Positions 49,294-57,973 of a DNA stretch of 64,000 nt are shown here, piece by piece. The DNA is from Clostridioides sp. ES-S-0010-02 (GTDB lineage: Bacteria; Bacillota; Clostridia; Peptostreptococcales; Peptostreptococcaceae). Each line of letters opens with the position of its first letter. Position 1 is the stretch's first letter. The stretch lies in the NCBI GenBank assembly GCA_020641055.1, contig CP067345.1, positions 1,915,317-1,979,316 on the forward strand, in the 5' to 3' direction. Under the pieces are notes generated by a model. It saw only the letters and a program-made list of their open reading frames with translations, had not been told where the DNA came from and searched no databases. The position numbers and the translations under genes were made by a program.

Positions 49294-50361
49294 ATGAGTG
49301 AAATAAAAATAATAGCAAGTAACAAGTGTTGGATTGAAGATATAGCAAAGAAACAACTTGAAGATATTTTAAAATTGAATGGAGTTTTAAGAATAGTAGG
49401 ATTGCCTGATTTACATGCAGGTAAAATACCTGTGGGCCTAGCAGTTGAAACCAAAGATATTATCTATCCACATATAATTGGAAATGATATAGGTTGTGGC
49501 ATGACTTTATTTAAAACTGGAATTTCCAAAAAGAAATTTAAAAAAGATAGATGGATTAAACGTCTTTATGAAATTAAAGATTTATCTGATATAAAAATAA
49601 TAAATCCATATGAAGAGGAATGCCCAATATCAAATTTGGGGACTATTGGAAGTGGAAATCATTTTATAGAATTTCAATGTGTAAATAAAATTCACAATAA
49701 AGAAAAATTTGAACTATTAAGATTTTCATCTGATGACATAATGATGTTAGTTCATTGTGGGTCAAGAAATTACGGAGAAACCATACTTAAAAAATTTTAT
49801 AATAAAAATGGTATTGAAGTTGGAAGTGAAAAAGAAAGAGATTATATGATAAATCATGATAAAGCTTTAATCTGGTCAGAGCGTAATCGTGAAATTGTTA
49901 GTAAAAAAATCATGCAATCAATAGGTATATCTAGAGATATTGAAAAAATATTGTCTATAAATCATAATTTTATAGAAAAAAGGGAAGATAAATTCATACA
50001 TAGAAAAGGTGCTGTTTCAAGTGAAAGAGGAGCTGTAATTATACCTGGTTCAAGAGGAAGTCTATCATATATAGTTATGCCTACTGAAAATACAGAACTG
50101 TCTTTATATTCTCTATCACATGGAGCTGGTAGAAAATGGTCTCGTTCAATTTGTAAATCTCGTCTTAAAAACAAGTATAATAAAGATACTATAAAACAAA
50201 CAAAATTTAAAAGTCATATTCTATGTAATGATATAAACTTGTTATTTCAAGAGGCTCCAGAAGCATATAAAAATATAGAACAAATTATTGAAAGTTTGAT
50301 AGAATATAAGCTTATTCAAGTAGTGGCAACTATGAAACCACTAATTACTTATAAAGGGTAA
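49294..50361 (+). CDS. RtcB2-type RNA ligase
   Basis: The 355-residue protein should join RNA 2',3'-cyclic phosphate ends to 5'-OH ends using GTP and Mn. The metal site appears as His41 (LPDLHAGK), Asp65 and Cys68 (GNDIGCGM), His123 (GNHFIEF) and His154 (VHCGSR). The guanylated His is His276 in SLSHGAGRKWSR. The shorter length and the C-terminal EAPEAYKNI ... VVATMKPLITYKG mark the RtcB2 branch rather than canonical RtcB. RtcB2 is usually encoded with the release-factor-like PrfH and repairs cut ribosomes, but no prfH lies here. AAAGGAG precedes the ATG. The leader may attenuate transcription. Confidence 0.88.
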   Translation: MSEIKIIASNKCWIEDIAKKQLEDILKLNGVLRIVGLPDLHAGKIPVGLAVETKDIIYPHIIGNDIGCGMTLFKTGISKKKFKKDRWIKRLYEIKDLSDIKIINPYEEECPISNLGTIGSGNHFIEFQCVNKIHNKEKFELLRFSSDDIMMLVHCGSRNYGETILKKFYNKNGIEVGSEKERDYMINHDKALIWSERNREIVSKKIMQSIGISRDIEKILSINHNFIEKREDKFIHRKGAVSSERGAVIIPGSRGSLSYIVMPTENTELSLYSLSHGAGRKWSRSICKSRLKNKYNKDTIKQTKFKSHILCNDINLLFQEAPEAYKNIEQIIESLIEYKLIQVVATMKPLITYKG

Positions 50362-50617: not shown

Positions 50618-50647
50618 TTGACACTAGGATATAATTTATGAAATAAT
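50618..50647 (+). promoter_or_regulatory. Likely promoter of the leader-MutS2-like unit
   Basis: TTGACA at 50618-50623 is followed 18 bases later by AATAAT at 50642-50647. It lies about 50 bases before the 17-residue leader ORF and after the upstream terminator. A closer TATAAT at 50629 is too near the -35 to serve with it. Confidence 0.6.
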
Positions 50648-50697
50648 GTTAAAGTGACTAAAATAGTTAAGTAAAAATAGAAAAGGAGCAGTGTTTT

Positions 50698-50751
50698 ATG
50701 AAAAAGAATACTAACATTAGTGAGTCCGGGGTTAGACTTCTTAATAAATAA
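50698..50751 (+). CDS. 17-residue leader peptide of the MutS2-like gene
   Basis: ATG 50698, ten bases after AAAAGGAG, opens MKKNTNISESGVRLLNK and stops at TAA 50749-50751. The stop codon lies inside the left arm (50740-50754) of a perfect 15-base inverted repeat. Stalled or terminating ribosomes on this ORF would therefore decide which RNA pairing forms downstream. Small size prevents any similarity-based proof. The evidence is the ribosome binding site, the placement and the coupled RNA structure. Confidence 0.65.
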   Translation: MKKNTNISESGVRLLNK

Positions 50752-50856
50752 GGAGTTTAATGAACAATAATTCCTTATTTATTAAGTCGATTACAAATAA
50801 TTATTATAAAAATAAGTGAAATAGTTATTTAAAATTCATGACTTATAAATAAAGGA
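50740..50856 (+). promoter_or_regulatory. erm-like translational attenuator controlling the MutS2-like gene
   Basis: Segment 2, CTTAATAAATAAGGA (50740-50754), overlaps the leader stop. Segment 3, TCCTTATTTATTAAG (50772-50786), is its exact complement. Segment 4, CTTATAAATAAAGGA (50842-50856), contains the ribosome binding site of the MutS2-like gene and is complementary to segment 3 except for one bulge on each strand; the pairing extends by two more bases (GA with TC). Pairing 3:4 hides the ribosome binding site, and pairing 2:3 frees it. A ribosome finishing the leader covers segment 2 and favours 3:4 (off); one stalled earlier leaves 2:3 (on). No T-run follows 2:3, so control is more likely translational than by termination. 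Confidence 0.7.
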
Positions 50857-50868
50857 GAAAGTAAAATA

Positions 50869-52785
50869 ATGAATAGTAATACAATTGAAAGACTACAACT
50901 AAATGAGGTTAAAGAATTAATAAAAATACATTGTGTAAGTTCACTTGGAAGAAATTTAATAGACAAATTAACTCCTAGTGGTAATATTGAAGTAGTAAGA
51001 AGGAAATTAAAAGAAAATAAAGAAGCTAGAAAAATAATTGAAAATAGTAATCATATACCACTTGAAGGGTTGTTTAATGCAGGTTCTACAATAGATAAAA
51101 TTGAAAAAGGAATGATAATAGAACCTATTGAACTTGTAAATATAGAGGATTTTTTAAGAGGTTGTAGGAAGATGAAAGCTTTTATGTTAGACAAAGAATT
51201 TTATTCGCCTACATTAAGTTCTTATGCTTTAAATATAACAGAATGCAAAAACATAGAGGAAGAGATAAACTACTGCATAAAATCAAATAAAGTTGATTCT
51301 AATGCCAGTAAAGAATTAAAAAAGGTAAGAAGAAATATAGAAGTTACAGAAGGAAAAATAAAAGATAGATTAAATAAGTTTATAACATCAAGTATAAACA
51401 AAAAGTATATACAAGAGTTTATAATAAGTAAAAGAAATGATAGATATGTAATACCAATTAAATCTTCTTATAAAAATGAAGTTGATGGTACTATATTAGA
51501 TACTTCATCAAAAGGAAATACTGTATTCGTTGAACCAATAAGTGTGTCAAATTTAAGTACAGAATTGACTATGTTAAAAGCTGACGAGACTATTGAAGAA
51601 TATAAGATATTATCTTATTTAACAGAGCTTATATTTGATAAAATAACTCAGATAAAGTTAAATATAGAAATACTTTCTGAATATGATATGGTATTTGCAA
51701 AAGCTAAATATAGTCAAAAAATAAATGGTATTACTCCAAGAATAAACAACAATGGATATATAAAAATAATCAAAGGTAAGCACCCACTTTTAACAGGAGA
51801 TGTGGTACCTTTAGATTTTGAAATAGGTAAAAGTTATAGAAGTCTTGTAATAACAGGACCTAATGCAGGTGGAAAAACTGTAACTCTTAAGACTGTTGGT
51901 CTATTAACTTTGATGGTTCAATGTGGTTTTGATATTTCTGCTAAAGAAGACAGCGAACTAAGTGTATTTGAAAAAGTGTTTGTAGATATAGGAGATAATC
52001 AAAGTATTGAAAATGCTCTAAGTACTTTTTCATCACACATAAAAAATATTGCAGAAATTATGGACTCATCAAATAATTCTACACTTGTTCTATTTGATGA
52101 GATAGGTAGTGGAACTGAACCCAATGAAGGAGCAGGACTAGCAATATCATTGCTAGAAGAGTTTTATAGTATGGGATGTATAACAATAGCATCAACTCAT
52201 TATGGCGAAATAAAAAAGTTTGCTAATTTGCATCCAGAATTTGAAAATGCAGGTATGATGTTTGATAAAGAAACTTTAGAACCATTATATAAATTAACAA
52301 TAGGAAAATCTGAAGATAGTAATGCTCTTTTTATTTCTAAAAAGATGGGAATAAAAAATAAGGTATTAAGTAGAGCTAAAGAATATATAACTGATAGAAA
52401 CTACAATTTAGATTTAGTTAAGAGAAGTAAATTAAAATCCCATACTGAAAATAAAGATAATGTTGAATTTATTTCCAATTATACAGAGTATAATACAGGT
52501 GATAAAGTAAAATTATTGGATGAAAATGACTTTGGAGTTGTGTATAAACCTAGAGACAAATTTAATAATGTAGAAATATTATTTAAAGACAATTTTGTTT
52601 TAGTAAATATAAAAAGATTAGAACTTAGTATAAAAGCAGAAGAGTTATATCCAGAAGGATATGATTTAAATTCATTGTTTACTAGTTTTAAAGATAGAAA
52701 ATTAGAAAAAGACATTCATAGAGGTTCAAAAAAAGCTCTTAAACAGATTCAAAGAGAAATTAGAGAAAATAGAAAACAAATGTAA
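50869..52785 (+). CDS. MutS2-like ATPase lacking the Smr nuclease domain
   Basis: The 638-residue protein has a MutS2-type core: N-terminal NTIERLQLNEVKELIKIHCVSSLGR, a helical lever and clamp, and a MutS-family ATPase with Walker A GPNAGGKT (330-337), TFSSHIKNI, Walker B LVLFDEIGSGTEPNEG and STHYGEIK. A KOW-like segment follows at about 545-600 (GDKVKLLDENDFGVVY). It then ends at about residue 638 with a basic tail, where normal MutS2 (around 780 residues) has an Smr endonuclease domain. B. subtilis MutS2 splits collided ribosomes, and the Smr-less form keeps the parts expected for ribosome binding. The preceding leader peptide and RNA switch support a translation-related function. Confidence 0.85.
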   Translation: MNSNTIERLQLNEVKELIKIHCVSSLGRNLIDKLTPSGNIEVVRRKLKENKEARKIIENSNHIPLEGLFNAGSTIDKIEKGMIIEPIELVNIEDFLRGCRKMKAFMLDKEFYSPTLSSYALNITECKNIEEEINYCIKSNKVDSNASKELKKVRRNIEVTEGKIKDRLNKFITSSINKKYIQEFIISKRNDRYVIPIKSSYKNEVDGTILDTSSKGNTVFVEPISVSNLSTELTMLKADETIEEYKILSYLTELIFDKITQIKLNIEILSEYDMVFAKAKYSQKINGITPRINNNGYIKIIKGKHPLLTGDVVPLDFEIGKSYRSLVITGPNAGGKTVTLKTVGLLTLMVQCGFDISAKEDSELSVFEKVFVDIGDNQSIENALSTFSSHIKNIAEIMDSSNNSTLVLFDEIGSGTEPNEGAGLAISLLEEFYSMGCITIASTHYGEIKKFANLHPEFENAGMMFDKETLEPLYKLTIGKSEDSNALFISKKMGIKNKVLSRAKEYITDRNYNLDLVKRSKLKSHTENKDNVEFISNYTEYNTGDKVKLLDENDFGVVYKPRDKFNNVEILFKDNFVLVNIKRLELSIKAEELYPEGYDLNSLFTSFKDRKLEKDIHRGSKKALKQIQREIRENRKQM

Positions 52786-52825: not shown

Positions 52826-52880
52826 CAAAACATGAGTAATAAATGCGATTATTTTTGCGTATTTTACTCATGTTTTTTTG
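52826..52880 (+). terminator. Rho-independent terminator after the MutS2-like gene
   Basis: AAAACATGAGTAA pairs with TTACTCATGTTTT, with an inner ATGCG/CGTAT helix, and is followed by a T-run. Confidence 0.85.
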
Positions 52881-52936: not shown

Positions 52937-53686
52937 ATGGATGTTCTATTATCTGTAAAAGATGTAACAAAGACTTACAGTAAAAATAAAAAACCAAGTT
53001 TGAATCATGTTTCATTCGAGGTAAATTCTGGTGAATTTGTTGGAATTATGGGAGCATCAGGTTCTGGAAAAACAACTTTACTAAATGTATTATCTACAAT
53101 AGATAGTGTAAATAGTGGTGAGATAATAATTAATGGTGTAAATTTAAAAGAATTAAATAATAACTCTACTGCGGATTTTATAAAGGATAATATTGGATTT
53201 ATATTTCAAGAATACTTTTTGATTGATAGTTTGAATGTTTTTGAAAATATAGCTGTACCACTTACTTTAAAACATATGCAAGCAAGTGAAATCGAAGATT
53301 CTATCAAGTTATTGACAAAACGTTTTGGAATAGATTCAACTTTGTATAAGTATCCAAATGAGTTATCTGGTGGTCAATGTCAAAGGGTTGCTGCAGCAAG
53401 AGCTATTATAAAAAAACCATCTATAATACTTGCAGATGAGCCAACTGGAGCACTTGACTCAGTATCAGCAAATGAGTTACTAAAAACACTAAGTGATGTA
53501 AATCGAGAATTAAAAACTACTATATTGATGGTAACACATGATGCTTATGTAGCTAGTTTTTGTAGTAGAATTTTGATTTTTAGGGATGGTCAAATTATAG
53601 ATGAACTTCAAAAAAATGAAAAAAATCATAAAGATTTCTTTGAAGCTATAGTTAGCAAGACCAGTAAACTAGAAGAAATATATTAG
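52937..53686 (+). CDS. BceA-type ABC transporter ATP-binding protein
   Basis: The 249-residue ATPase has Walker A GASGSGKTT, the signature LSGGQCQRVAAARA, Walker B IILADEPTGALDS and switch His in MVTHDAYVA, all typical of the MacB/BceA group. It is followed after 25 bases by a BceB-like permease, so together they form an antimicrobial-peptide sensing and resistance module. AAAGGAGG precedes the ATG. Expression is probably governed by the two-component system encoded directly downstream. Confidence 0.9.
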   Translation: MDVLLSVKDVTKTYSKNKKPSLNHVSFEVNSGEFVGIMGASGSGKTTLLNVLSTIDSVNSGEIIINGVNLKELNNNSTADFIKDNIGFIFQEYFLIDSLNVFENIAVPLTLKHMQASEIEDSIKLLTKRFGIDSTLYKYPNELSGGQCQRVAAARAIIKKPSIILADEPTGALDSVSANELLKTLSDVNRELKTTILMVTHDAYVASFCSRILIFRDGQIIDELQKNEKNHKDFFEAIVSKTSKLEEIY

Positions 53687-53711
53687 TATACATTAAAAGG
53701 AGATAGTAAAA

Positions 53712-55691
53712 ATGAATATATATAACATTGCTAAAAAGAATCTCAAGAAAAACTTTTCGTTTTATTCATTATATTTGTTTTCTGTAGCTTTTATACTCAT
53801 GATATTTTTTAGTTTTGTATCTTTTTCTGTGAATGATATTATAATGAATAAAATTTCATCAGATGGAAGAGTAGAAACTATGACAAAAACTATTTCAATT
53901 TTTATAATTTCATTTGTATTATTCTATATGCTTTACTCAAATAGATTTTTTATAAGACGTAGAATGAGAGAGCTTGGCATATACACCTTGATGGGATATA
54001 GAAAATCAAGTATATTAAAATTAGTTATGATTGAAAATATATTTATTTGCATGATTGCTTTTATTATAGGTGTTTTAGCTGGTTCATTATTACATAAGTT
54101 TATTATACATGTAATTGTGCATTCATTAAATTTAAATGTAGATAGTTCAAAGATACCTTTTTTCAATGTAAATGCTGTTATTTCTAGTATATTATTTTTA
54201 ATTGTTATATTACTTGTACTATATTTTTCAAATTGGAAATTGATTCGAAGAAATTCTCTTCTTAATTTAGTCAAAATAGAACGAAACGAAGAAAAACAGA
54301 TTATAATAAGACCTTTGATAGCTTTTATAGGTATTTTTATGCTTGTATTAGGATATGTACTAGCTTTTGATATGACTAGAGGAAAGGATTCTGTTTGGTA
54401 TAGTATTGGTTTTTCTCCAATTGCTATATTGACCTTACTTTGCGTAGTTGTTGGAACTGTTTTTTTTATAAATTCATTTTTACCTTATATTATTAGAATA
54501 TTAAAAACTAAAAAAAATCATTTTTATAGAGAAATACAGATTATTACAATTCCTAAGTTTATTTACTCCATACGTTCTAATGCAAAAACATTAATTTTAT
54601 TAACTTTGTTGTCAGCAGGAACATTATGTATATTTGCGTCAACTGTTTTATCAATTTATTATCCTGTAGTAGCAGTTTCTCGTATAGTACCTTCTGCTAT
54701 TGAGTTTAAGTTAGAAGAAAAAAGTAATGTTGATAAAATTATTAATGCTGTAAGAGATTATGAATTAATAGAAAACCTTAAATACAGAGAAACAAATATT
54801 ATAAAAGTAAATTCTTCATCAAAAAATTTACCGATTGAGTATTCTATTGGCAAAGACAAAGGAAGAATCTCTGGATTTGACTGTATATCAGAGTCTGATT
54901 ATATAGAATTAATTAAACAACAAGGGAAAAAATTTGATTTAAAACCTCTGAATTATAATGAAAGTGTATTAGTAAAATATAGACCAAGTGAAGAGAATGT
55001 GGATAAAGGGAAAATCCTTAACTTAGATTTATATTCAGATAAAAAGGTAGATGTGGTTATAAAGGATACTACATTAGATAATCCAATTAGTTTTTCAAAT
55101 AGTATTGGAACATTAATAGTGTCGGATAAACTATATAATGAAATATCTAGATACAATAATCTATCAAGAAATTCTATTATAAGTATTGATGGAAAAGATA
55201 TGAGAGATAATAAAGAAATTTATGAAAAACTTAAAAATTTATTAAAGAATAATCCATATTTTATAAGTGCTTATCAAAGAAAATTTGAAATTGTGCATGA
55301 GAGTAGTTCAACTTTTTTATTGATTAGCTTTCTTTCTGTTATATTTTTTATTGCTACAGGAAGTATGCTGTATTTTCACAGTATTTCTAATGCCATTTAT
55401 GATAGAAATAGTTTTAATATATTGAGTAAAATAGGATATAGTCAAAAAAATATAAAGAAAATAATTAAGAATCAGATTTTAGTGTTTTTTTCGATACCAT
55501 ATGTATTAGGAATGGCACATAGTATATTTGGATTAATTGCTTACAAATCTGCTTTAATAGATAACATATTAGGAAATAATACACCTATAATAATTCCAAT
55601 AGTATTTGCAAGTGTCATATTTACACTAGTATATATAGGATATTACATTTTAACAAAGTATTCATGTTATAAAATAGTGCTTAAAAAATAG
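53712..55691 (+). CDS. BceB-type ABC transporter permease (FtsX family)
   Basis: The 659-residue permease has the Bce layout: about ten transmembrane helices and a large extracellular domain of roughly 190 residues (about 330-530) before the last three helices. The N-terminus, NIYNIAKKNLKKNFSFYSLYLFSVAF, and the early RRRMRELGIYTLMGYRKSSILKLVMIENIF are typical FtsX-like coupling segments. BceAB transporters free lipid II cycle intermediates from bacitracin-like or lantibiotic peptides and signal to a histidine kinase. It lies just after its ATPase. AAAGGAG precedes the ATG. Confidence 0.9.
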   Translation: MNIYNIAKKNLKKNFSFYSLYLFSVAFILMIFFSFVSFSVNDIIMNKISSDGRVETMTKTISIFIISFVLFYMLYSNRFFIRRRMRELGIYTLMGYRKSSILKLVMIENIFICMIAFIIGVLAGSLLHKFIIHVIVHSLNLNVDSSKIPFFNVNAVISSILFLIVILLVLYFSNWKLIRRNSLLNLVKIERNEEKQIIIRPLIAFIGIFMLVLGYVLAFDMTRGKDSVWYSIGFSPIAILTLLCVVVGTVFFINSFLPYIIRILKTKKNHFYREIQIITIPKFIYSIRSNAKTLILLTLLSAGTLCIFASTVLSIYYPVVAVSRIVPSAIEFKLEEKSNVDKIINAVRDYELIENLKYRETNIIKVNSSSKNLPIEYSIGKDKGRISGFDCISESDYIELIKQQGKKFDLKPLNYNESVLVKYRPSEENVDKGKILNLDLYSDKKVDVVIKDTTLDNPISFSNSIGTLIVSDKLYNEISRYNNLSRNSIISIDGKDMRDNKEIYEKLKNLLKNNPYFISAYQRKFEIVHESSSTFLLISFLSVIFFIATGSMLYFHSISNAIYDRNSFNILSKIGYSQKNIKKIIKNQILVFFSIPYVLGMAHSIFGLIAYKSALIDNILGNNTPIIIPIVFASVIFTLVYIGYYILTKYSCYKIVLKK

Positions 55692-55803
55692 CATTAAAAA
55701 TTTTATAAAATATTTGGAAAATAGAAGATAAGCATCTTGTATATAAATTAATTTACAAGTTATGTAATGTTATCATATAATTAATTATCAGAAAGGAGTT
55801 AAT

Positions 55804-57390
55804 ATGTTCAAAGTCAGTTATAATAAAAGAAAGATTTTCATATTAATAAATCAATTATTGATAATATTATTTCTAATTTATGAATTTTTTAATAATAAAA
55901 ATATTAAAAGTATTTCCATTTTCACTCTCTTACTTGTATCTATTATAGTTGTTGATATAATGTACATTGAATTAATTAACTTGAAACAAAATAGAGTGCT
56001 CGTACAATTTACAAACTTGCTTGTTTTGCTTTCTTGGTATTTTTTATTTTTATTTGATAATAGTAAAACATCTTCTGAATTAATTTTTTTCCTAAGTCCA
56101 ATTATTGTTTTTGAAAGTGTAAGATTTTTATTTGTATTTTTCTTTCAAGATTACAAATACAACTACCAGAAAGGCTTAGAATTTATATTGAAACTTATGT
56201 GTGCTTTGACAGTCGTTTCAAAATTTATTGATAATCATCTGTTTGCACTACTTTATTTATTACAAATAATTATAAGTTTGATAAGCTTTATATTCTTAAT
56301 AGTCTTATATAAAAAAACTGTGATACTTGTTTTAAAGTGTGAGAAAAGAAATTTTATATATTCAGCTATTTTATTGTTTATATTCCTTGTATATGCTATA
56401 GTTTTTTCTAAAAAACAGGAATATGTTGAGAATCTAGGAATGTATTTAATTATATCATTAGCCATATTTAGTATCCATAATATTGCTATAAAAGATAAAG
56501 GTTATATAAAACAAAATACTATGCTAAATGGTAAGAAAAGATTGATTTTTATTTCTTTAATAAGTGTATTTTTCGTTGGAATTGGAAAACTATTAGACCT
56601 TAATATAATTACGTATTTTATAATAATACATTGTATATTTTGGTTTACTCTACTTTACTTTATTTTAATTTACACAAACATTGATGATATCATATATAAT
56701 AAAAATTCAGTAAAAAAATTTAGTGTGCAAGAAAGCAACTTAATAAATAATCTAATGCAGATATATAAAGAGGAAGAGCTTAAAAAGGATTTTTCTAATT
56801 ATCTACATGATGAAGTATTACAAGATTTACTGTCAATTAAAAATATGATGAAAAAATCTGAAAATCCAGATGTAAAATATATAATCGTAAGTACATTAGA
56901 AAAATTAAATCTATCTATTCGCAATCAAATGCAGGATTATCATCCAATATTGTTAAAAACACTTACATTAAAAGAAAATATAGAAAATATGTTTGTTATG
57001 GTTAGAGGTAATTATTTATCTAAAAATATAGAAATTTGTTTTACATGTGAAGATAATATATTTTTGGCTGAACCATATAATTTTATTATATACCGTATAT
57101 TAAAAGAGCTAGTAACAAATGCTTTTAAACATTCAAATTGCTCTAAAATCGAAATTTCACTAATTCAAAAAAATAAAGATATAATTCTTTCAGTATTAGA
57201 TAACGGAGTGGGAGTGGAAAGTGAATATGATTTAATAAGATATCAAAATAATGGGCTATCTTCTATTCAAGAACAATTACACAGATTAAATGGTGTTTTT
57301 AATATTGATAAGACAGCTTCTGGGTTTAGTATTGTTGTAAAAATTCCTATGGAAGGAGAGAATTATTATAAATATTTTATTAATAGATGA
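55804..57390 (+). CDS. NarL-type sensor histidine kinase
   Basis: The 528-residue kinase has eight to nine N-terminal membrane helices up to about residue 290 with almost no extracellular domain. A HisKA_3 dimerisation helix follows with the phospho-acceptor His335 in YLHDEVLQDLLS, then an ATP-binding domain with ELVTNAFKHSN (N-box), LDNGVGV and NNGLSSIQEQLHRLNG. Bce-type transporters normally work with short two-helix BceS kinases of the HPK3 class. A multi-helix HisKA_3 kinase is unusual. It may receive the signal through the transporter or sense the membrane itself. The gene overlaps the likely start of the response regulator by 26 bases. Confidence 0.88.
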   Translation: MFKVSYNKRKIFILINQLLIILFLIYEFFNNKNIKSISIFTLLLVSIIVVDIMYIELINLKQNRVLVQFTNLLVLLSWYFLFLFDNSKTSSELIFFLSPIIVFESVRFLFVFFFQDYKYNYQKGLEFILKLMCALTVVSKFIDNHLFALLYLLQIIISLISFIFLIVLYKKTVILVLKCEKRNFIYSAILLFIFLVYAIVFSKKQEYVENLGMYLIISLAIFSIHNIAIKDKGYIKQNTMLNGKKRLIFISLISVFFVGIGKLLDLNIITYFIIIHCIFWFTLLYFILIYTNIDDIIYNKNSVKKFSVQESNLINNLMQIYKEEELKKDFSNYLHDEVLQDLLSIKNMMKKSENPDVKYIIVSTLEKLNLSIRNQMQDYHPILLKTLTLKENIENMFVMVRGNYLSKNIEICFTCEDNIFLAEPYNFIIYRILKELVTNAFKHSNCSKIEISLIQKNKDIILSVLDNGVGVESEYDLIRYQNNGLSSIQEQLHRLNGVFNIDKTASGFSIVVKIPMEGENYYKYFINR

Positions 57391-57973
57391 CCATGTGTTA
57401 TTTGCAAAAAGCTTAGAAATTGCATTAGAAGATTATACTGAAATAGAAAAATTTATTTATATTAAAGATATTTCCCAGGTAATTTCAATAATTAAAAATG
57501 AAAAACCAGATATAATTCTTATTGATATTAATTTAGGAAAAATTGATAATGATGGGTTGTCTCTAGCAAAAGACATTATAAGAATAATACCTAAAGTAAA
57601 AATAGTCATGTTAACGGGTTATGATTTGCCTGTATATAAGTATGAAGCTCAAAAAATGGGTGCAAAAGGCTTTATAAATAAAAATATTGAGCCAGATAAA
57701 TTTATTGAAATATTAAATCAGATTCAAAATGGATATAATTATTTTCCCAATGAAATAAAATATATTGAAGAGCTAACACATAGAGAAAAATTAATATTGC
57801 AATTTCTATATAATGGAGTTAAGAGAAAAGATATAGCAACTCAATTATACTTAAGTGAGCGAACAGTATCTAATCATATCCAAAACATTTTTGATAAACT
57901 AAATGTATCTTCTTCATTAGAAGCTGTCACAAAGGGAGTTCAGCTTGGATATATTAAACTCAATATGCAATAA
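57365..57973 (+). CDS. NarL/LuxR-type response regulator with probable AUU start
   Basis: The product has a receiver domain and a LuxR HTH (EELTHREKLILQFLYNGVKRKDIATQLYLSERTVSNHIQNIFDKLNV). The acid pair of the receiver, IDDH, lies upstream of the first conventional start codon (GTG 57395). Between the preceding in-frame stop (57338) and that GTG there is no ATG, GTG or TTG. An AGGAG (57354-57358) sits six bases before ATT 57365, which would give a normal INILLIDDHVLFAKSLE start. ATT 57362 and ATA 57368 are alternatives. The phospho-acceptor is the Asp in IILIDINLG. The GTG form would lack the acid pocket. It is likely cognate to the kinase upstream. Confidence 0.82.
   Translation: MINILLIDDHVLFAKSLEIALEDYTEIEKFIYIKDISQVISIIKNEKPDIILIDINLGKIDNDGLSLAKDIIRIIPKVKIVMLTGYDLPVYKYEAQKMGAKGFINKNIEPDKFIEILNQIQNGYNYFPNEIKYIEELTHREKLILQFLYNGVKRKDIATQLYLSERTVSNHIQNIFDKLNVSSSLEAVTKGVQLGYIKLNMQ

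Follow-up and report, generated by a model that had tools for sequence, protein, structure and literature searches.

The window analysed here, a stretch of 64,000 nucleotides from Clostridioides sp. ES-S-0010-02 (contig CP067345.1, positions 1,915,317 to 1,979,316 of the forward strand), carries a gene for a MutS2-like ATPase of 638 amino acids that ends before the Smr domain and is preceded by a 17-codon open reading frame (ORF) set among RNA segments with competing pairing partners. We computed the anatomy of this locus, its alternative pairings, their conservation, the clade structure of the proteins and the association between leaders and clade, and leader-coupled control of the short mutS2 gene is well supported by them. 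The elements concerned, numbered from the first letter of the window, are the following:

50684..50688, forward strand: Shine–Dalgarno (SD) sequence AGGAG of the leader ORF, read in the sequence, with a similar site in relatives.
50698..50751, forward strand: leader ORF of 17 codons, MKKNTNISESGVRLLNK followed by a stop, with its ATG at 50698 and its stop codon at 50749-50751.
50731..50743, forward strand: segment 1, the leader codons VRLL, partner of 50749-50761, from the fold centroid and the alignment.
50740..50754, forward strand: segment 2 as the partner of segment 3, containing the leader stop codon, from sequence and alignment.
50749..50761, forward strand: segment 2 as the partner of segment 1, from the alignment.
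50772..50786, forward strand: segment 3, partner of segment 2 (perfect) or of segment 4 (near perfect), from sequence and alignment.
50842..50857, forward strand: segment 4, the gene's ribosome-binding region, with AGGAG at 50853-50857, from sequence and alignment.
50869..52785, forward strand: Smr-less MutS2-like ATPase, 638 amino acids, from PF00488, from TIGR01069 over residues 2-519 and from the tree.

The leader ORF with its own ribosome-binding site and the two alternative pairings of segment 3 had been picked out in an earlier, sequence-only reading of this DNA, and both can be read off directly: 50740-50754 and 50772-50786 are perfect complements over 15 bp, and 50842-50856 is a near-identical copy of 50740-50754 that extends into the gene's SD. 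That reading had counted three segments; its segments 2, 3 and 4 stand, and the additional one at 50731-50743 makes the layout one of four segments in which 1:2, 2:3 and 3:4 pairings are possible. The four-segment layout is that of erm attenuators. Helices 1:2 and 3:4 on the one side and 2:3 on the other are mutually exclusive, and the gene's SD lies within 3:4, a helix backed by pairing and energy and hardly by covariation. Folded as a single sequence, the RNA of 50655-50900 has a z score of -3.0, with 1 of 200 shuffles equally stable. No Rfam family was found in the 64-kb window at gathering scores, and in the window's interval from leader to gene the terminator scan reported no transcription terminator. 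With a more lenient scan, covering a stretch that extends upstream of the leader, 9 of the 21 class III loci listed by hand were flagged within 330 nt, the window included.

Conservation of leader and segments, whose absence in relatives had been named beforehand as what would refute the earlier reading, is seen in 34 distinct loci. Among 52 loci of at least 60% identity (the window counted, and some of them one genome drawn from two collections), 50 have a leader of the long type, representing 34 distinct regions; L014 and L020, with leaders of another type, were left out of the class III alignment. Across the 34 aligned loci, the share of paired cells is 97.2% for helix 2:3 (33-56% in slid controls), 89.8% for helix 1:2 (40-67%) and 92.1% for helix 3:4 (35-55%). 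Changes on both sides of a pair affect 3 pairs and 10 cells of helix 2:3, numbers reached by 12 and 0 of 500 shuffles, and 4 pairs and 12 cells of helix 1:2, reached by 11 and 0 of 500. Covariation, which the earlier reading had proposed to check in segments 2, 3 and 4, is seen as compensatory changes in 1:2 and 2:3, and hardly any occur in 3:4. Relative to dinucleotide shuffles, duplex energies have median z scores of -8.5 (2:3) and -4.9 (3:4) and fall under the shuffle mean in 34/34 loci, the weakest being a 3:4 helix at z -1.6 (L021). It might be supposed that such hairpins affect mRNA stability alone, or that their likeness is ancestry without function, and the short, A+T-rich segments and the weak covariation of 3:4 would agree with this; given compensatory changes in two mutually exclusive helices, the shuffle controls, and distant clade members whose RNA is built differently, from a leader and a terminator, we find the idea barely credible.

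The two-part leader RNA pattern occurs in 27 of the 71 family genomes, 25 of them having it at a short-mutS2 locus by position; the leader RNA patterns are found almost only at the short mutS2 gene. Pattern matches in G049, G064 (C37), G065 and G066 (C259) are near-palindromes that we took for terminators, and the one other exact copy of the 16-base seed in the window's own genome, at the end of an rnf-type operon gene, appears to be fortuitous. Between the leader and the MutS2-like gene, 9 of the 34 loci (L009, L011, L019, L022-L025, L044, L047) contain a small helix-turn-helix gene, which belongs to the Mor family PF08765 in both cases tested; by eye it is also present at L077, L078, L079, L099 and L111, and it is not at this place in the window.

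How the position of a ribosome on the leader would bear on the gene's SD was modelled at the 34 loci by setting a ribosome on each leader codon in turn and folding only the RNA that lies downstream of it; for L029, whose leader frame is broken, an in-frame start further upstream was used. Predicted openness of the gene's SD has medians of 0.89 and 0.91 when the peptidyl (P) site lies 7 and 6 codons before the last sense codon, and of 0.13-0.14 when it lies on any of the last four leader codons. At position -6, openness is at least 0.50 in 27/34 loci, and on the last sense codon it is at most 0.45 in 34/34. In the window's leader, positions -7/-6 correspond to Ser10/Gly11, the predicted P site of a halt. 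The free RNA is about half open already (median 0.62). When alternative folds were enforced, as the sequence-only reading had suggested, the window's RNA came out balanced, at -36.3 kcal/mol closed and -35.5 open, a difference of +0.8 kcal/mol, and the naked RNA favoured the open form in 29/34 loci, with a median ON-OFF difference of -6.1 kcal/mol, in a calculation that gives the closed form the 3:4 register of L001 and hence undervalues it at other loci. Because the naked RNA is balanced or leans open, repression by the switch is likely to require that ribosomes translate the leader through to its stop codon. In this it would differ from the textbook erm switch, whose closed state is favoured without a stalled ribosome. 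The erm-like logic of the earlier reading thus holds as far as conserved pairings and the predicted opening upon a halt and closing upon completion are concerned, and fits less well with a balanced or open naked RNA and with leaders among which we found no conservation of an RLR motif.

These same energies invite a rival account, namely that the leader is a general sensor of translation deficit, in which any loss of leader translation, through inhibited starts, ribosome shortage or starvation, would open the gene and no drug-specific stall would be needed. The open lean and the half-open free RNA speak for it, as do the highly variable leader peptides. Openness that peaks at positions -7 and -6, and is lower (medians 0.44-0.75) at positions -14 to -8, speaks against it, and a valine that recurs in three leader classes, together with an LN-type end in two, hints at a signal at the level of the peptide; we consider this account possible, although on the unlikely side.

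The encoded protein has the following parts of note:

51856..51879, forward strand: Walker A motif GPNAGGKT, amino acids 330-337, from the short-protein alignment.
52486..52608, forward strand: possible KOW-like region, about amino acids 540-580, aligned with the KOW region of full-length proteins.
52633..52782, forward strand: conserved C-terminal tail LYPxxYDLDxLF...RK..., replacing linker and Smr, from the alignment.

MutS_V (PF00488) is the sole Pfam match of the 638-residue protein, and the mutS2 model TIGR01069 scores 594 bits against a cut-off of 400 over model positions 1-524 of 790. Residues 4-522 align with the solved relatives, structures of B. subtilis MutS2 (PDB 7qv3 and 8qpp). 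The G, N, GG, K and T of Walker A are invariant in 87/87 short proteins and the P is present in 86, with A or T at the fourth place. A MutS2-like gene ending before Smr was what the sequence-only reading had described, and the loss of Smr proves to be clade-wide; it is also larger than described, as the linker of about 100 amino acids before Smr is missing too and the short proteins have a conserved tail of their own instead. A simple Smr-type motif was found in 21/22 full-length and 1/106 short proteins, counted before de-duplication. A KOW-like region may be kept in the short protein: strands are predicted at 546-580, a block whose predicted local distance difference test (pLDDT) values of 71-81 make it the best-scored part of the AlphaFold model. 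Other assignments were considered and set aside. KamC (NF052383) scores 220.8 bits, below its cut-off of 300; the product has no match to a 23S rRNA methyltransferase as in the erm family, PF00488 standing alone; and Pfam gives it no ABC-transporter match as would befit an ARE-ABCF.

The nearest named protein relatives are Clostridioides difficile records of 91-92% identity. Relatives are annotated as DNA mismatch repair protein MutS or endonuclease MutS2. Those labels, and older MutS2 work concerned with recombination, would suit a short protein that acts on DNA in recombination or repair, its leader coupling it to growth rate. The protein has no Smr and no Pfam match besides PF00488, leader control is found at the short gene but at none of the full-length mutS2 loci examined, and full-length MutS2 splits stalled ribosomes (PMC10897456), so that a role on DNA strikes us as improbable. 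The endonuclease and mismatch-repair annotations of short proteins are probably misleading.

The 638-residue protein belongs to a clade of Smr-less MutS2 proteins. Besides a full-length MutS2 (41% identity), its host genome (4.26 Mb, one contig) encodes two MutS relatives that are more distant. All 71 of 71 family genomes were matched at E <= 1e-60 and 42 had a second match by hand count, fragmentary or decayed in 3 of the 42 (G030, G034, G047); in the last, G047:C1:1433167-1434102 is a decayed or partial short MutS2-like gene of 60% identity with a stop within the match. When 80 short and 22 full-length proteins were placed in a tree, a single branch separated the two types, with a Shimodaira–Hasegawa-like approximate likelihood ratio test (SH-aLRT) support of 100. 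The tree comes from a quick search without an outgroup, which leaves it unrooted as to the derived type, and several long branches were flagged; it omits seven near-identical short proteins, and L021, whose frame is disrupted, was left out of the protein alignment and the short-protein counts. At E <= 1e-130, matches were found in 62 of the 198 genomes at order level, 18 of 391 at class level and 11 of 299 at phylum level, the own genome counted each time; a few of them fall within frames that are full-length or partial. A mobile origin was set aside, since the 15 plasmid records matched all have less than 60% identity and several are chromosome-sized.

Across this wider clade, leader patterns are present at 78 of 86 short-clade loci (40 long, 27 VLN-like and 11 MS-type), where 3.6 would be expected in shuffled upstream regions, and at 0 of 22 full-length mutS2 loci. 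An automatic test found a small ORF whose end can pair strongly downstream at 67/86 short and 0/22 full-length loci. The leader patterns, the limit of -15 kcal/mol in the automatic test and the hand leader list were set after the upstream regions had been viewed, and because the patterns are post hoc it is only the full-length and shuffled controls that make the leader counts informative. The count of 86 derives from 87 distinct complete short proteins less L132 (under 150 nt upstream); L094, L117, L124, L135 and L136, cut off or shorter than 600 amino acids, were not counted, and L161-L172, added later, are outside all leader, pairing-test and protein counts.

More distant short genes have leaders of other kinds, MSV, MSVVSI, MSGVFSK and similar peptides as well as M(S/L/I)xxVLN(K), with a terminator behind most of them. 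This arrangement reads as transcription attenuation, a second mode in which the same gene is controlled; a Cytobacillus plasmid record, for instance, has a short gene with the leader MLGVVLN and a terminator. Terminator-like hairpins occur within 330 nt upstream at 29/30 hand-listed loci of classes I and II, the short-leader classes, and at 2/22 full-length loci. Of 148 genomes at order level, four carry the VLN pattern, in each case next to a short mutS2 gene as judged by position. In L014 (Clostridium aestuarii) a VLN-type leader and a terminator accompany a protein that in the tree stands next to long-leader relatives within a long-leader group; the gene therefore seems to have been retained while the RNA half of its switch was replaced. 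At the distant loci L105, L110, L118, L121 and L130, another terminator together with another tiny ORF is visible by eye between the first attenuator and the gene, as if two attenuators were stacked.

Valine is present in 49 of 51 hand-listed leaders (isoleucine in its place in the other two), and leucine occurs after the first residue in 44 of 51. One might accordingly think of an amino-acid starvation attenuator, in which ribosomes waiting at leader valine or leucine codons would switch the gene on. The leaders hold few valine codons and no long runs, some being merely MSV, the last leader codons are also constrained by base pairing, and the gene is not a biosynthetic one; starvation control appears quite improbable to us.

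The reading that we favour, with moderate confidence, is that a ribosome-mediated leader attenuator silences a second, Smr-less MutS2 until ribosomes are in trouble, and that its product likely splits stalled or collided ribosomes. Ribosomes reaching the leader stop would cover segment 2, so that segment 3 would pair with segment 4 and make the gene's ribosome-binding site inaccessible. With the ribosome halted near codons 10-11 instead, segment 1 would be covered and segment 2 left free to pair with segment 3, which would release segment 4 and allow the gene to be translated. The short MutS2, with its core and ATPase, perhaps a KOW-like region, and no Smr, would then act on stalled or collided ribosomes and split them as B. 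subtilis MutS2 does, the whole system being an inducible reserve splitting factor comparable to Listeria HflXr. The switch presumably operates as folded, and by analogy with MutS2 and HflXr we infer that ribosome-targeting drugs may cause the halt and that the short MutS2 may split ribosomes. The B. subtilis protein splits collided ribosomes, mutations of Walker A or Walker B abolish its splitting of disomes, and the Walker B mutant is as sensitive to erythromycin as the knockout, KOW and SMR mutants being very modestly so (PMC10897456). Since the Walker mutations abolish splitting and the SMR and KOW mutants are milder, a Smr-less form that keeps the ATPase could still split ribosomes. Further splitting factors have been argued to exist in B. 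subtilis (PMC11633108).

Several results, besides the open lean of the naked RNA given above, weigh against this reading. First, helix 3:4, on which repression would depend, has 1 pair changed on both sides, a number reached by 389/500 shuffles; its covariation score is reached by 63/500, and slid versions of the helix attain 3 both-side pairs and 11 cells, against 1 and 9 in the true register. Second, openness at the best average position stays under 0.50 in L012, L026, L046, L049, L051, L052 and L053, and at -6 it is just 0.50-0.57 in L015-L017. Third, codon-position changes in the 5′ part of the leader number 131/254/297, a weak third-position bias, and therefore selection at the peptide level in that part is not proven; in L029, a Clostridioides locus, the leader frame is broken by a small length difference, its RNA segments look intact, and the leaders of sister genomes are intact. 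Fourth, the leader pattern is missing at 8/86 clade loci, the best small ORF in the automatic test is not the leader at several of the passing loci, and most full-length controls belong to a single family (20 of them, the others being L002 and L096), a narrower set than the short one. Finally, the alignment of the KOW-like region is weak (hhalign E 0.00045 but probability 33%) and the AlphaFold model of the short protein is poor, with a mean pLDDT of 45.8; SMR and KOW promote the binding of MutS2 to collided ribosomes and their mutants have an intermediate reporter phenotype (PMC10897456), and therefore a Smr-less protein may bind differently.

More tentatively, and with slightly less than even confidence, we propose that the nuclease-free MutS2 clade, distributed across the Bacillota, is a dedicated leader-gated splitting response to ribosome-targeting antibiotics, a MutS2 counterpart of HflXr and the ARE-ABCFs, with at least three leader designs (MSV-, VLN- and ELGVVLLNK-type) in which a valine-containing sensing core would have been kept and the RNA half rebuilt between transcription and translation attenuation. 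If this is true, ribosome splitting by MutS2 would go beyond housekeeping rescue, and many Clostridia and some Bacilli, the C. difficile group included, would also use it as an inducible response to stress or drugs; the presence of a second, nuclease-free MutS2 in such genomes would be explained, and one leader with one gene would offer a testable case for the dispensability of Smr in splitting. In the literature searched, which most subscription papers lie outside, we found no study of a bacterial MutS2 that lacks Smr or is under leader control. The class of mechanism and the superfamily of the protein are both familiar; the combination and its breadth appear to be new.

Two candidate signals flank the locus:

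50618..50647, forward strand: promoter-like site TTGACA-18-AATAAT, with TG ahead of the second hexamer, 11/12 matches.
52827..52878, forward strand: hairpin and T run after the gene, perhaps a terminator, seen by eye and not reported by the terminator scan.

The promoter scan as a whole returned 22 sites against 21.2 in shuffles, that is, no excess, and the site upstream of the leader is called promoter-like on its match quality and on comparable sites that can be made out by eye ahead of the leaders of relatives. An RtcB-type RNA ligase gene (PF01139; window 49294-50361) immediately precedes the leader region. Downstream, 52937-57973 of the window encodes an ABC transporter ATPase, an FtsX-type permease, a histidine kinase and a LuxR-type response regulator, which we take to resemble a peptide-antibiotic sensing and export module.

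Known systems share parts of this arrangement. An attenuator of the ermC type (on ermC, see PMC10219788) likewise has four segments, a leader SD, and a gene SD that helix 3:4 conceals and helix 2:3 frees upon a halt; the window's gene differs in being no rRNA methyltransferase, its leader stop lies inside segment 2, and its naked RNA is balanced or open. With B. subtilis MutS2 the window protein shares alignable residues 4-522, the Walker motifs and possibly the KOW region, and it differs from it in lacking Smr and the linker of about 100 amino acids, in its own C-terminal tail, in its attenuator control and in a clade separate from the sampled full-length MutS2. The C. difficile gene cplR has an upstream ORF (uORF) attenuator that responds to retapamulin and lincomycin, and its leader start-codon mutant is silent and uninducible (PMC10201436). 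The class I leaders of MSV type are like the cplR and other ARE-ABCF attenuators (uORF MRI in C. difficile cplR) in being very short and having terminators, and in cplR and its kin the gene so controlled encodes a ribosome-protecting ATPase (PMC10201436); the window differs in having a MutS2 and not an ABC-F, a longer leader, and no terminator found before the gene. The nearest precedent for the whole arrangement in the sources consulted is Listeria monocytogenes HflXr (lmo0762), which is homologous to a splitting factor, confers drug resistance and is under attenuator control. There too a second copy of a splitting factor is kept silent by a small-ORF attenuator and the other copy is retained in the genome (PMC6310831); the window's gene is set apart by its MutS2 family, by translational rather than transcriptional attenuation, and by leaders without a conserved RLR.
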